Source: Limnochordaceae bacterium
GTDB taxonomy: Bacteria > Bacillota > Limnochordia > Limnochordales > DUMU01
Length of the DNA: 64,000 nucleotides
Assembly (NCBI GenBank): GCA_014896305.1
Contig: JADBKQ010000001.1
Location: forward strand, 124,001 to 188,000
Reading direction: 5' to 3'
Below are positions 9,295-14,409 of this stretch, in pieces. The notes under the pieces were generated by a model, which was not told where the DNA came from, did not search any database, and saw only the letters and a program-made list of their open reading frames with translations. How positions within the stretch are numbered: position 1 is the stretch's first letter; every line of letters starts with the position of its first letter. Made by a program: the position numbers and the translations under genes.

Positions 9295-10335
9295 ATGCGG
9301 CTAGGAGACTTCCTACGCTCCCACCCGCAAGCGCGCCGGTCGGGGGTGGAGGCGTCCAAAGGGTCCCCTGCGCCGGCAGAGACGCCCGCCCGGGGCGCAG
9401 GAGGCGCCCAAGAGTTGGGGCAAGAGGCCGAAGCCCGGGATGGAGGGGCCGGCCTGGTGGAGAAGGAACGGCCAAGTGACGGCGAAGAACGAGTAGTCCT
9501 GCTTCCGATCAGCGAGATTCGACGGGGGACATGGCAACCGCGCCACGAGTTCGACGACGAGGATTTGGAGCAGCTAGCCCGCTCCATCGCTGCCCAGGGT
9601 TTGGTCTCTCCGGTCCTGGTGAGGCCGTGGTCGGGTGGCGGGTACGAGCTGGTGGCTGGGGAGCGCCGCTTTCGAGCCTGCCAGCGACTGGGCTGGACGC
9701 ACATCCCGGCGGTGGTGCGGCAGCTCAGCGATCAGGCGGCGGCGGAAGGAGCGCTGGTGGAGAACGTTCAGCGGGCGGACCTGCATTTTCTGGAGGAAGC
9801 CCGCGCGTACCGGCGGCTGATGGAGGAATTCGGCCTGACGCAAGAGCAGGTGGCTGAGCGGGTAGGCAAGAGCCAGCCTGCCGTAGCCAACCGGCTGCGG
9901 CTGCTGAGGCTGAGTGAGCGGGTTCAGGAGGCGATCTGTCAGGCGGGGTTGGGGGAGCGTCAGGCCCGGGCATTGTTAGCGCTGGAGACCGAAGAGGCTC
10001 AGCTGGCCATGGTGGAGCGGATCGAACGCGATCACCTGAGCAGCGAGCAAGTGGAGAAGATTGTGGGGGCGGGGCGGGTAAGAGCCAAGAAGGCGGGACG
10101 CCGGGGCACCGGAGCTCAGGACGCCGAGGGGCGCCACATCATTCGCTGGCTTCAGGATTTACGCCCGTTTCGGAACTCGCTGCGGGAGTTGGTGGCGGCG
10201 TTGCGACAGACGGGAGTAACAGTGGAATTGGAAGAGAGCCAGTCCGATCAGGAGTACCGGGCCGTGATCCGGGTGGATCATGGGCAGCCTGGGGCCCAGG
10301 TGAGTCGGCAGGAGGAGCGTCAATCGATTGGGTGA
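9295..10335 (+). CDS. noc: Nucleoid occlusion protein Noc-like ParB paralog
   Basis: ParB/Spo0J fold (YELVAGERRFRACQRLGW, GALVENVQRADLHFLEEARAYRRLMEEFGLTQEQVAERVGKSQPAVANRLRLL), upstream of parA after rsmG as in Bacillota. Confidence 0.83.
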   Translation: MRLGDFLRSHPQARRSGVEASKGSPAPAETPARGAGGAQELGQEAEARDGGAGLVEKERPSDGEERVVLLPISEIRRGTWQPRHEFDDEDLEQLARSIAAQGLVSPVLVRPWSGGGYELVAGERRFRACQRLGWTHIPAVVRQLSDQAAAEGALVENVQRADLHFLEEARAYRRLMEEFGLTQEQVAERVGKSQPAVANRLRLLRLSERVQEAICQAGLGERQARALLALETEEAQLAMVERIERDHLSSEQVEKIVGAGRVRAKKAGRRGTGAQDAEGRHIIRWLQDLRPFRNSLRELVAALRQTGVTVELEESQSDQEYRAVIRVDHGQPGAQVSRQEERQSIG

Positions 10336-11140
10336 AGTGTTGGCCATTGTGAATCAAAAGGGTGGGGTGGGCAAAAGCACGACGGCCGTCAATTTAGCGG
10401 CCTGCCTGGCGGAGGCTGGCGCCCATGTGTTGCTGGTGGACATGGATCCGCAGGCGAATGCCACCAGTGGCCTGGGGATCGAGCGGCAGCAGTTGAAACG
10501 GTCCATTTATGATTGCCTGATTAGGGGCGAGCCTGTTTCAGAGGCCATGCTCAAAGACGTGGCTTTGCCGGGCCTGGACGTGTTGCCGGCCACCATCGAC
10601 CTGGCCGGTGCGGAGGTTGAGCTGGTTTCCGTCTTCTCTCGGGAATATCGGCTGCGGCAGGCGTTGGATAGCTTGGAAAACGAGTACCGGTTTATCCTGG
10701 TGGATTCCCCGCCGTCGTTGGGCCTACTGACCATCAACTCGCTCGCAGCCGCAAGTGGGGCGCTCATCCCGATCCAGTGCGAGTATTACGCGCTGGAAGG
10801 GGTCAGCCAATTGATGCGGACGGTCGAGATGGTGCAACGCCATCTAAACCGACAGCTTACGATACGTGGCGTCGTGCTGACGATGTACGATAGCCGGACG
10901 AAGCTTTCAGATGAGGTGAGCCGTTCGGTGCGGGAAGTGTTTGGCGAAAGGGTGTTCCATTCCGTCATCCCAAGGAACGTGCGACTGAGTGAGGCCCCCA
11001 GTTTTGGCCAGCCGATCATTCAGTATGACGGGGCTTCTCGAGGGGCGGAGGCGTACCGGGCCCTGGCGCAGGAACTGCTGGGTGGAGCCGCCAATCAGCG
11101 GGAGGGGGCTCACACGGGTACGGGAGCGGGGGGTCAATGA
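10328..11140 (+). CDS. parA: Chromosome partitioning ATPase ParA/Soj
   Basis: VLAIVNQKGGVGKSTTAVNLAACLAEAGAHVLLVDMDPQANATSGLG deviant Walker A. Confidence 0.97.
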   Translation: MGEVLAIVNQKGGVGKSTTAVNLAACLAEAGAHVLLVDMDPQANATSGLGIERQQLKRSIYDCLIRGEPVSEAMLKDVALPGLDVLPATIDLAGAEVELVSVFSREYRLRQALDSLENEYRFILVDSPPSLGLLTINSLAAASGALIPIQCEYYALEGVSQLMRTVEMVQRHLNRQLTIRGVVLTMYDSRTKLSDEVSRSVREVFGERVFHSVIPRNVRLSEAPSFGQPIIQYDGASRGAEAYRALAQELLGGAANQREGAHTGTGAGGQ

Positions 11141-12045
11141 TGGCTCGCCAGGCGTTGGGGAGGGGCTTGCAGGCGCTGATGGGCAGTGAAGCGGTCAGCG
11201 CAGGAGCACAGGAAATTGATATCGACAGAGTGACTCCCAGCGGGTATCAGGCAAGGACCGAGATCGATCCGGAAGCACTTAATGAGCTGGCGGAATCCAT
11301 TCGGTTGCACGGGGTAGTTCAGCCGATTGTAGTCCGGCCCCGCGGGGACGGCTATGAGCTGGTGGTCGGCGAGCGGAGGTGGCGCGCGGCCCAGCTGGCA
11401 GGACTGCGGACCATCCCGGCCGTGGTGCGGGAGCTCGACGAGCGGTCCACTATGGAGTTGGGTCTGATCGAGAACCTGCAGCGGGAGGATTTGAATGTTC
11501 TGGACGAAGCAGAAGCATACCGTCGTCTGATGGAGGAGTTCGGACTGACCCAGGAGCAGGTAGCCAGTGCGGTGGGTAAGAAGCGCTCCAGCGTGGCGAA
11601 CGCCTTGCGGCTGTTGAGCCTCTCAGCCCGGGTGAAGGAACTGGTACGCAGCGGCAAACTTGGGGCCGGACATGCGAAGGTGCTGGCCGGGCTTGAGTCA
11701 GAGCGGGAGCAGCTGGTCCTGGCCCAGGCGGTGGTGGAGCGAGGTTGGAGCGTAAGGCAACTGGAAGACACTGTGCGGCGGCGCAAGAGTGTCAGAGGAA
11801 CCCACACGGGGGGTAGGGCGGAGGAAGGCGCGTCGAACGAGGAGAGCAGTGCCTTGCCGGCTGACATCAAGGAAGTCGTGGAAGCGTTGCAGCGTTTCTT
11901 GGGGACCAAGGTCCGTTGCCGCCCGGGGAAGCAAAAGAGCGTTCTTGAAATCGAGTATTACGGGGAAGAGGACCTGCGCCGCATTCTGGAAAGAGTGGCT
12001 GCCCAATTGGGTGGTCGGGGCGGCGTAGATGATGTGCCGTTTTAG
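11137..12045 (+). CDS. parB: Chromosome partitioning protein ParB/Spo0J
   Basis: MARQALGRGLQALMG...YELVVGERRWRAAQLAGLRTIPAVVRELDE...LIENLQREDLNVLDEAEAYRRLMEEFGLTQEQVA. Confidence 0.97.
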   Translation: MMARQALGRGLQALMGSEAVSAGAQEIDIDRVTPSGYQARTEIDPEALNELAESIRLHGVVQPIVVRPRGDGYELVVGERRWRAAQLAGLRTIPAVVRELDERSTMELGLIENLQREDLNVLDEAEAYRRLMEEFGLTQEQVASAVGKKRSSVANALRLLSLSARVKELVRSGKLGAGHAKVLAGLESEREQLVLAQAVVERGWSVRQLEDTVRRRKSVRGTHTGGRAEEGASNEESSALPADIKEVVEALQRFLGTKVRCRPGKQKSVLEIEYYGEEDLRRILERVAAQLGGRGGVDDVPF

Positions 12046-12051
12046 CCGCAA

Positions 12052-12067
12052 TGTTCCACGTGGAACA
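12052..12067. promoter_or_regulatory. parS: parS centromere-like site
   Basis: Perfect palindrome TGTTCCACGTGGAACA 7 nt downstream of the parB stop. Confidence 0.95.
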
Positions 12068-12162: not shown

Positions 12163-13317
12163 ATGTTGGGTACAACTACCCCGAGTTCGGCCCGGATGGA
12201 TCCCGTTCAGTCCCTCCGCATCCAAGACCGAGTACGATTGGTCGCCTCCTCGCCCCTTCACCGCGGGGTCTATGAGACGACCATTCTCGGCATACAGTCA
12301 GGGAAGCTCCGGGTCGCTCTGCCTCAAGACCAGGGAAAGTTCGTCTTCATTCCCGTGGGTACTACGGTCCAGCTTCTGACCGCCGACGGGCAGCCATCCA
12401 CCCTCTGGCGGGTCATCGACCGCCAGGGAGGTGAACGGCGCAGCCTTGTCTTGTCGCCGCCCACATGCCCAGCCAGCGAGCCCTTCCCGCTTCCCCGGAG
12501 CCGGGTACTGGCAGTTTCCAGCGGCAAAGGAGGAGTCGGCAAGAGTGTGCTTGCCCTCAACCTGGCCCTGGGGCTGGCCGATCTGGGGCGGAAGGTCTGC
12601 CTGATCGATGCTGACCTTGGCACTGCCAATCTGGATGTCCTCCTCAACCTTGCTCCTCGCTACAGCCTGGAAGATGTGGTGCGCGGCGGTCGTGCCCTGC
12701 CGGAAGTCCTGGTACAAGGACCGGGGGGAATTCAGATCCTGCCTGGGGCGTCGGCAGTAGAGGAATTGGCGGATCTGGCAGAATCCCATTTCCGGAAGCT
12801 GTACTCCCAGCTCTCCGAGTTGGACACCCTGGCGGACACCCTCGTGATCGACACCGGAGCGGGGCTTTCCCGGCGAGTCACCAGTTTCTTACTGGCTGCG
12901 GGGGAAACCATTCTGGTTACGACTCCCGAGCCCCATGCCATCACCGACGCATACGCTCTCCTGAAGGTCTTGATGAGCCATCGTCACACGGCTGCTATTC
13001 ACCTCGTGGTCGCAATGTGCAAAAACCACGAGGAAGGTAGCGCGGTGGCGGAAAAGATGATGTTCGCGGCCCGCCGGTTCTTGGACGTAGACCTGGACTT
13101 TCTCGGCGCATTTCCCTTCGACCCCGCAGTTCCGGCATCCGTCCGGCAGCAGCGCCCGCTCTTTCTCAGCTATCCACACAGCCGGGCCTCCCAGGCCATT
13201 AGAAGTTTAGCGGCTCGCTTGTTGCGGCTCCAGGCTGATCCCACCCTGTCCTCGCCCCTGTCCCGCTTCCTTCAGCGCTTGCGCGAAGCGGGAGCTCTCG
13301 CTCGTTTTCGTGATTGA
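12163..13317 (+). CDS. MinD/FlhG (YlxH)-like P-loop ATPase with N-terminal PilZN/YcgR-like domain
   Basis: N-terminus LRIQDRVRLVASSPLHRGVYETTILGIQSGKLRVALPQDQGKFVFIPVGTTVQLLTADGQPSTLWRVIDR; then VLAVSSGKGGVGKSVLALNLALGLADLGRKVCLIDADLGTANLDVLL. Confidence 0.82.
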   Translation: MLGTTTPSSARMDPVQSLRIQDRVRLVASSPLHRGVYETTILGIQSGKLRVALPQDQGKFVFIPVGTTVQLLTADGQPSTLWRVIDRQGGERRSLVLSPPTCPASEPFPLPRSRVLAVSSGKGGVGKSVLALNLALGLADLGRKVCLIDADLGTANLDVLLNLAPRYSLEDVVRGGRALPEVLVQGPGGIQILPGASAVEELADLAESHFRKLYSQLSELDTLADTLVIDTGAGLSRRVTSFLLAAGETILVTTPEPHAITDAYALLKVLMSHRHTAAIHLVVAMCKNHEEGSAVAEKMMFAARRFLDVDLDFLGAFPFDPAVPASVRQQRPLFLSYPHSRASQAIRSLAARLLRLQADPTLSSPLSRFLQRLREAGALARFRD

Positions 13318-13420
13318 ATCTCCCTCTATTTACCCACACTACTCCCGGGAGGCAGGCTCGCGGCCAAGGGGATCTACCGAGCTAAACCCTTCCGAGGGAG
13401 GAAGGAAAGGAGAGGTCGGG

Positions 13421-13663
13421 ATGAACCAACGGCGCGTCGCTCTCGACGATAAACTGGAGTACCTGCGACGTTCCTTACAGCAGAACGGCTACCAAGTGGT
13501 CGGACTGACCGACGGCTTGAGGACGGCCGATGCGGTCGTCATCAGCGGCATGAACCGTAACCTCACCGGCGCGCAAGATATCCGCGTAGACGCTCCGGTC
13601 GTCGATGCAGACGGCAAGACGCCAGACGAAGTTCTGGCGGCGTTAGCCGAACGCCTCAGCTAA
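13421..13663 (+). CDS. YkuS family (UPF0180) protein
   Basis: 80 aa: MNQRRVALDDKLEYLRRSLQQNGYQVVGL...ADAVVISGMNRNLTGAQDI; SD GGAAAGGAGAGG. Confidence 0.78.
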   Translation: MNQRRVALDDKLEYLRRSLQQNGYQVVGLTDGLRTADAVVISGMNRNLTGAQDIRVDAPVVDADGKTPDEVLAALAERLS

Positions 13664-14409
13664 GGAGTACCTGCCGACTGACGCGGCGGGACGGACCCGG
13701 GCCAGGCAAGATCCTGTCCTCCCGCCGCCTCCAACGTTGCCACACCCGGGAGTGATCGCACGGAACCTGACAGACTCGGCTCGCCTCGCTCGGCTCCCGC
13801 CCAGGACCCCTCGAAGCCAACCCCCGCTGCCTCCAACAGCGCCATTCCAATCACCTCGGCCATGCGGGCGACGAGATGCAAGCGGGTGTTCTGCAGCACA
13901 AAGTATTCCATGAAGCCCCCAACGTTGACGACGCCAACCAGGTGAATATCGCCAACAGGGGGCAAGTTCTTATTCACTCCCGTCCCGGGGTGCAGGGGGC
14001 CGAGCCGCAGAGACACCGTACCGACATGACTGGCCTGGCCCAGACAGGCATCCACGGCAATCACCGCATGTCCCGAGGCCTCCTCCAGGTGGCCAAGGAC
14101 CTCTACCAGATTGGTGGCGTGAACGGGAAGCTCCAGTGTCCCGAAAACACGTAGCTGGGGAGGAGCATAGCGACGCAGATAATCACCGACGAGTGGCCCA
14201 AGCGCGTCCCCGGTAGAGCGGTCAGTGCCGACGCAAACGACCGTCCAGGGCTGGCGGGCCAGTCCCATCTCCAACAGGCTGAAACGAATGGCCTCGGCTA
14301 ACCGCCGCGAAGCTACTGGCTCCTGGTAATGAACCCGAACCACCGGGGAGCTCAGGCTGTTGCCATCCGCGGGAAAACGTTCATTCGGCCAGTGAACACT
14401 TGACGCCAT
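13660..14409 (-). CDS. yyaC: Spore protease YyaC
   Basis: WTVVCVGTDRSTGDALGPLVGDYL...VHATNLVEVL...VIAVDACLG...GPLHPGTGVNKNLPPVGDIHLVGVVNVGGFMEYFVLQNTRL. Confidence 0.9.
   Translation of the reverse strand: MASSVHWPNERFPADGNSLSSPVVRVHYQEPVASRRLAEAIRFSLLEMGLARQPWTVVCVGTDRSTGDALGPLVGDYLRRYAPPQLRVFGTLELPVHATNLVEVLGHLEEASGHAVIAVDACLGQASHVGTVSLRLGPLHPGTGVNKNLPPVGDIHLVGVVNVGGFMEYFVLQNTRLHLVARMAEVIGMALLEAAGVGFEGSWAGAERGEPSLSGSVRSLPGVATLEAAGGQDLAWPGSVPPRQSAGTP

Follow-up and report, generated by a model that had tools for sequence, protein, structure and literature searches.

The protein encoded at positions 12163..13317 (+ strand) of the window, by which we mean the whole 64,000-nucleotide stretch of Limnochordaceae DNA analysed here, is a conserved paralogue of FlhG that carries a PilZN domain, and it belongs to a widespread second family of FlhG-type proteins. 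This protein, consisting of 384 amino acids and delineated through Pfam, its sequence relatives in the PDB and an alignment of its homologues, comprises an N-terminal PilZN domain (12211..12462, +; about aa residues 17 to 100), a short linker placed from the alignment (12463..12498, +; about aa residues 101 to 112) and a deviant Walker A ATPase domain of the FlhG/FleN type (12499..13227, +; about aa residues 113 to 355), whose SGKGGVGKS motif spans aa 120–128. A predicted C-terminal helix (aa 365–375; 13255..13287, +) corresponds in position to the membrane-targeting helix of FlhG and MinD. Conservation among 27 aligned sequences begins at about residue 17–20, so that PilZN is part of the translated protein; this contradicts a translation start near residue 110, one of the outcomes that would have spoken against the original prediction. 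The ATG codons at 12163 and 12196 are indistinguishable as the start of the gene, and both include PilZN. A scan for promoters and terminators gave no signal above chance. A full-text literature search, in which few subscription journals were covered, found no prior description of a PilZN-FlhG protein, and in a review of FlhF and FlhG from December 2025 (PMC12826062) the terms "PilZ" and "YcgR" occur nowhere.

Pfam family matches, profile comparison and a fold search all support the presence of a PilZN domain at the N-terminus of the ATPase, as originally proposed. The window protein matches the Pfam family PF12945 (PilZNR) between aa residues 20 and 72 with a marginal score (23.5 bits against a cut-off of 23; E 6e-5). 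The same family was matched by all relatives in a diverse alignment (12/12; best E 4e-12), and scanning genomes with it gave a score as high as 53 bits for a fusion relative in genome G015. Moreover, a profile of 54 fusion N-terminal domains was matched to the PilZN domains of YcgR over 104 columns with 99.5% probability. Since the N-terminal domain was of low confidence within the full-length model, it was modelled separately, resulting in a mean pLDDT of 75 and an all-beta pattern. The top fold match of this predicted domain in the PDB was the PilZN-PilZ protein MotI/DgrA of Bacillus subtilis (E 9e-4, TM 0.70; the matched half of MotI is not given), and the second was VCA0042, likewise a PilZN-PilZ protein. 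The fold search did better than a sequence search of the PDB with the N-domain profile, which returned chance matches only. The fusion thus resembles the brake proteins YcgR, MotI (DgrA) and PlzD in its N-terminal PilZN and its flagellar association, but it differs from them in having an ATPase and no PilZ domain, and consequently no canonical c-di-GMP site: the PilZ family PF07238 was matched in none of the 12 fusion members. Direct binding of c-di-GMP is unlikely because no PilZ domain follows PilZN, and the direct connection to this second messenger suggested by the original annotation is not sustained.

The C-terminal part of the protein matches Pfam models of ParA/MinD-type ATPases (aa residues 114 to 353). 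Its best sequence relatives in the PDB are FleN (E 3e-58) and FlhG (E 1e-41), well above MinD and Soj, and the modelled ATPase matches the FleN and FlhG structures 5j1j and 4rz3 with a TM score of 0.94; Soj lies far below them both in sequence and in fold, and MinD forms its own clade in the ATPase tree (support 100/100). Thus, although the fusion shares its ATPase superfamily with Soj/ParA and MinD and stands in a soj-parB neighbourhood, it is clearly closer to FlhG, and its earlier assignment to the FlhG/MinD-like spatial regulators is supported and can be narrowed to FleN/FlhG as the closest proteins by sequence and fold. Besides the ATPase domain, it shares with FlhG (FleN, YlxH), a MinD-like ATPase that governs how many flagella are made and where they are placed, the deviant Walker A motif, the position of the basic/hydrophobic C-terminal helix and its occurrence in flagellated genomes. 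The amphipathicity of that helix is not significant in the window member (p 0.18), and its hydrophobic moment is significant in some fusion members only, the relatives showing a similar hydrophobic/basic pattern.

The FlhF-FlhG pair has been described as a conserved switch behind flagellation patterns, in which FlhG acts on FlhF via its DQAxxLR helix. It is here that the fusion departs from FlhG, since it has an added PilZN and, apart from two forms located in flagellar operons, no such helix: DQAxxLR precedes the ATPase in 36 of 37 canonical FlhG proteins versus 2 of 54 fusions. In the window protein the motif is absent and PilZN stands in the place of that helix. A DPVQSLR stretch near its N-terminus, considered as a hidden DQAxxLR, is not kept in relatives, and a third fusion with the motif, matched automatically (L226), was discarded because the motif lies inside a PilZN strand. 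The two exceptions, from genomes G338 and G422, have the same PilZN and ATPase domains as the window fusion, but they keep the FlhF-activating helix and are encoded between flhF and ycgR (flhF-[DQAxxLR-PilZN-FlhG]-ycgR); no other FlhG-type gene was found in those genomes. Genome G161 was rejected as a further case of a fusion being the sole FlhG, its operon containing a divergent FlhG with DQAxxLR.

Within the phylum, the fusion is carried by at least 54 genomes. It occurs in 28 of the 73 genomes searched from the window's class, spread over 10 of its 16 families, and a sample of 399 genomes drawn from across the phylum yielded full-length fusions in at least 26 genomes from other classes. That the window's genome is flagellated follows from its FlhA, FliG and flagellin genes, all of which lie on other contigs, and one or more flagellar marker genes are present in every carrier examined. 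FlhA accompanies the fusion in 26/26 carriers outside the class, which are not phylogenetically independent, and in all carriers within it except G027. The latter, lacking FlhA and FliG, was dismissed as an aflagellate carrier because it has flagellin genes, the missing markers being attributed to assembly gaps. The co-occurrence within the class says little, as almost every genome there is flagellated, and that observed outside the class is more informative. A canonical FlhG is retained alongside the fusion in most carriers, and many have a full PilZN-PilZ YcgR as well.

The window's own family is different in this respect. In the window's genome (G000) and in its sisters G001 and G002, the gene order of the flagellar operon is flhA-flhF-pilZ-sigD, which leaves no space for flhG, and a search of these three genomes gave no further FlhG-like gene scoring above MinD level; within the family, no FlhG-type protein besides the fusion was found. 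The FlhF of the window's genome (L114 706-1842) has no recognisable GTPase domain, its P-loop region reading GAKGSGKEGVG, and gives no SRP54 match, versus 139.7 bits in a relative with canonical FlhG. In G001 the GTPase domain score of FlhF is partial (43 bits), and the FlhF of G002 is also reduced. A 689-aa ORF of the window's genome (L113 14402-16471, G000:C12) appears to be a FliR-FlhB fusion, and ORFs of similar length are present in G001 and G002. The functional idea originally attached to the gene would be weakened by a canonical flhG encoded separately within the flagellar operon; such a gene is absent from the window's genome and present in most relatives. The motility half of that idea is strengthened by the flagellar genes of all carriers, by the close forms within the flagellar operon of three other genomes and by the fusion being the only FlhG-type gene of the window's family.

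Canonical flhG is absent from a contiguous operon in G000, G001, G002, G016, G024, G030 and G033, all of them carriers, and the verified losses represent about four events (families f1, f7, f10 and f12). No verified loss was found among the non-carriers of the class, where three apparent losses proved to be contig ends. With carriers in 10 of 16 families, the chance probability of all losses falling in carriers is approximately 0.12 (hypergeometric, computed by hand), and the confinement of flhG loss to carriers is thus suggestive, not significant. Family f12 and genome G024 have no DQAxxLR protein in the operon, yet their FlhF retains an intact GTPase domain. Consequently, FlhF does not invariably decay where its activator is lost, and this combination is left unexplained by the model proposed below.

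On balance, we consider it likely that the fusion represents a family paralogous to FlhG, PilZN-FlhG, and helps to determine how many flagella are formed and where, docking through PilZN and not activating FlhF. In FlhG, the DQAxxLR motif stimulates FlhF, dimers bind the membrane by the C-terminal helix, and C-ring proteins are bound, namely FliM or, in B. subtilis, FliY (PMC12826062, PMC12327844). For the N-terminal domain of E. coli YcgR, residue D54 is needed for binding to FliG (PMC10140304). By analogy, the ATPase of the fusion would alternate, like FlhG and MinD, between a monomer in the cytosol and a dimer on the membrane, and PilZN would anchor it at the flagellar base (C-ring or stator), similarly to the way in which the YcgR N-domain contacts FliG in E. 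coli, so that the fusion would limit or place basal bodies without stimulating FlhF. An FlhG module that gains such an additional contact with the flagellar base and lacks any known way to activate FlhF would constitute an FlhF-independent factor for flagellar placement or number. The contact between PilZN and the motor, carried over from E. coli YcgR, would be the weakest step of this mechanism, and the N-terminal domain of E. coli YcgR belongs to a different Pfam family. A flagellar role of the fusion is probable, although the protein may have another function in those carriers that keep a canonical FlhG. A widespread FlhG without the activating helix and with a brake-type domain, sometimes as the sole FlhG, makes it possible to study in natural lineages how FlhG works when it does not activate FlhF; furthermore, PilZN-FlhG allows one to ask whether PilZN is a general docking module for the flagellar base.

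The slot that relatives fill with flhG and a full PilZN-PilZ YcgR bears on whether c-di-GMP could nevertheless act on the ATPase. In the window's genome, it holds a PilZ-only protein of 149 aa between flhF and sigD (L114 1848-2297, G000:C12; PF07238, 55 bits), in whose sequence the RxxxR and DxSxxG motifs are visible and which has no PilZN; this genome also has one GGDEF gene. Both observations would suit an FlhG gated by c-di-GMP, in which PilZN pairs in trans with the separate PilZ protein and the second messenger sets flagellar number. We regard such gating as improbable, since the PilZ protein of the sister genomes G001 and G002 is longer, keeping about 100 N-terminal residues, which indicates that the split is not a general trait, and since a full PilZN-PilZ YcgR is present too in many carriers.

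The gene order around the fusion introduces a second alternative. Whereas canonical flhG lies in the flagellar operon, flanked by flhF and ycgR/sigD, the window fusion is located instead at soj-parB. A second ParB-family gene, Noc-like by position (9295-10335), precedes soj (parA; 10328..11140, +) and parB (spo0J; 11137..12045, +), both identified with Pfam, and a perfect parS (TGTTCCACGTGGAACA, chance expectation 0) lies at 12052-12067. The fusion starts 117 nt past the parB stop and 95 nt past this site, which confirms its reported closeness to parB and parS. Downstream are a UPF0180 (YkuS-like) gene (13310..13663, +), whose true start is probably ATG 13421, and a yyaC-like spore protease gene (DUF1256; 13660..14409, -) assigned with Pfam, the latter being a conserved neighbour. 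In all 27 class carriers checked, from ten families, soj-parB is directly upstream on the same strand. With fusion starts extrapolated from the alignment, the gap to parB measures approximately 14–162 bp in 25 of these carriers, the remaining two having gaps of approximately 213 and 454 bp; in several families it is only about 14–28 bp (about 14–22 bp in f8-type genomes). In many class carriers parS lies between parB and the fusion, and yyaC usually follows next on the opposite strand.

This arrangement, in which the shortest gaps suggest one transcript with soj-parB, would be compatible with an accessory ATPase of the ParABS system or of sporulation, derived from FlhG and repurposed in the class to assist in placing the origin or the sporulation pole. 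Retention of canonical FlhG by most carriers points in the same direction. However, the fusion occupies scattered loci away from parB in other classes, so that adjoining parB and parS, a trait of ParA/Soj, is found for the fusion in the window's class only: the segregation-locus address is a property of that class, and the fusion family as a whole lacks it. Gene order near the origin is, moreover, generally well conserved, which means that the linkage may be inherited and not functional, and both the flagellar genes of every carrier and the genomes having the fusion as sole FlhG argue for a flagellar role. We therefore judge such an accessory ATPase rather unlikely. The link to chromosome segregation put forward in the original prediction is accordingly upheld as far as gene order is conserved within one class and fails outside it, where the gene is unlinked to parB; a functional link, with conserved gene order as its sole basis, is at most possible. 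Returning to PilZN-FlhG as a flagellar factor, the fusion of the window's class is probably co-expressed with soj-parB, so that its synthesis may be kept in time with the chromosome cycle, and it provides a concrete gene for testing a coupling of flagellation and chromosome segregation.

Two further readings were weighed. The marginal PilZN score of the window member and the strong divergence of carrier G016 would fit a relic or a functionally minor paralogue with no distinct role, but the Walker and switch motifs of the ATPase and the core residues of PilZN are kept across the deep branches of the family, and the gene order is kept across ten families of the class, which makes a relic highly improbable. 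At the other extreme, the FlhF/FlhG switch might have been rebuilt in this lineage: with the GTPase arm lost or decayed, PilZN-FlhG would read the motor state, or c-di-GMP in trans through the stand-alone PilZ protein, and would be made in step with soj-parB, matching each origin or pole with a flagellum. We consider so complete a rewiring very unlikely.

As for the origin of the family, ATPase-domain trees placed most fusions apart from canonical FlhG. In a free tree, the flhG of family f4 fell inside the fusion clade; this was a search artefact, given that a constraint holding all canonical sequences together yielded a better likelihood. The same constraint placed the three in-operon PilZN forms among canonical FlhG (p-AU 0.74), and a single clade of all fusions was compatible with the data as well (p-AU 0.62), so that the fusion may have arisen once or several times. 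The flagellar operon of G114, ordered flhA-flhF-flhG-[PilZN-FlhG]-ycgR, is the arrangement expected from a single tandem duplication that began within flhG and extended into the part of ycgR encoding PilZN. Such an event would gain PilZN and lose the DQAxxLR helix in one step.

Some individual genomes deserve mention. In G077, G161 and G123 (L161, L263 and L265), the FlhG of the operon is short and diverged, with a long branch in the ATPase tree in the case of G077, while the separately encoded PilZN-FlhG shows good conservation, as though it had taken over the role of the ATPase. In another fusion carrier (G102), the operon flhG is split over two overlapping frames (L266 4692-4979 and 4868-5557), through either a frameshift or a sequencing error. 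Finally, in one Syntrophomonadaceae MAG (PUKV01000028.1; L034 1028-2221, +), HU takes the place of PilZN: an HU-type DNA-binding domain (PF00216, aa 10–96, E 5e-25) is joined there to an ATPase of the FlhG type, which falls with the PilZN-FlhG clade.
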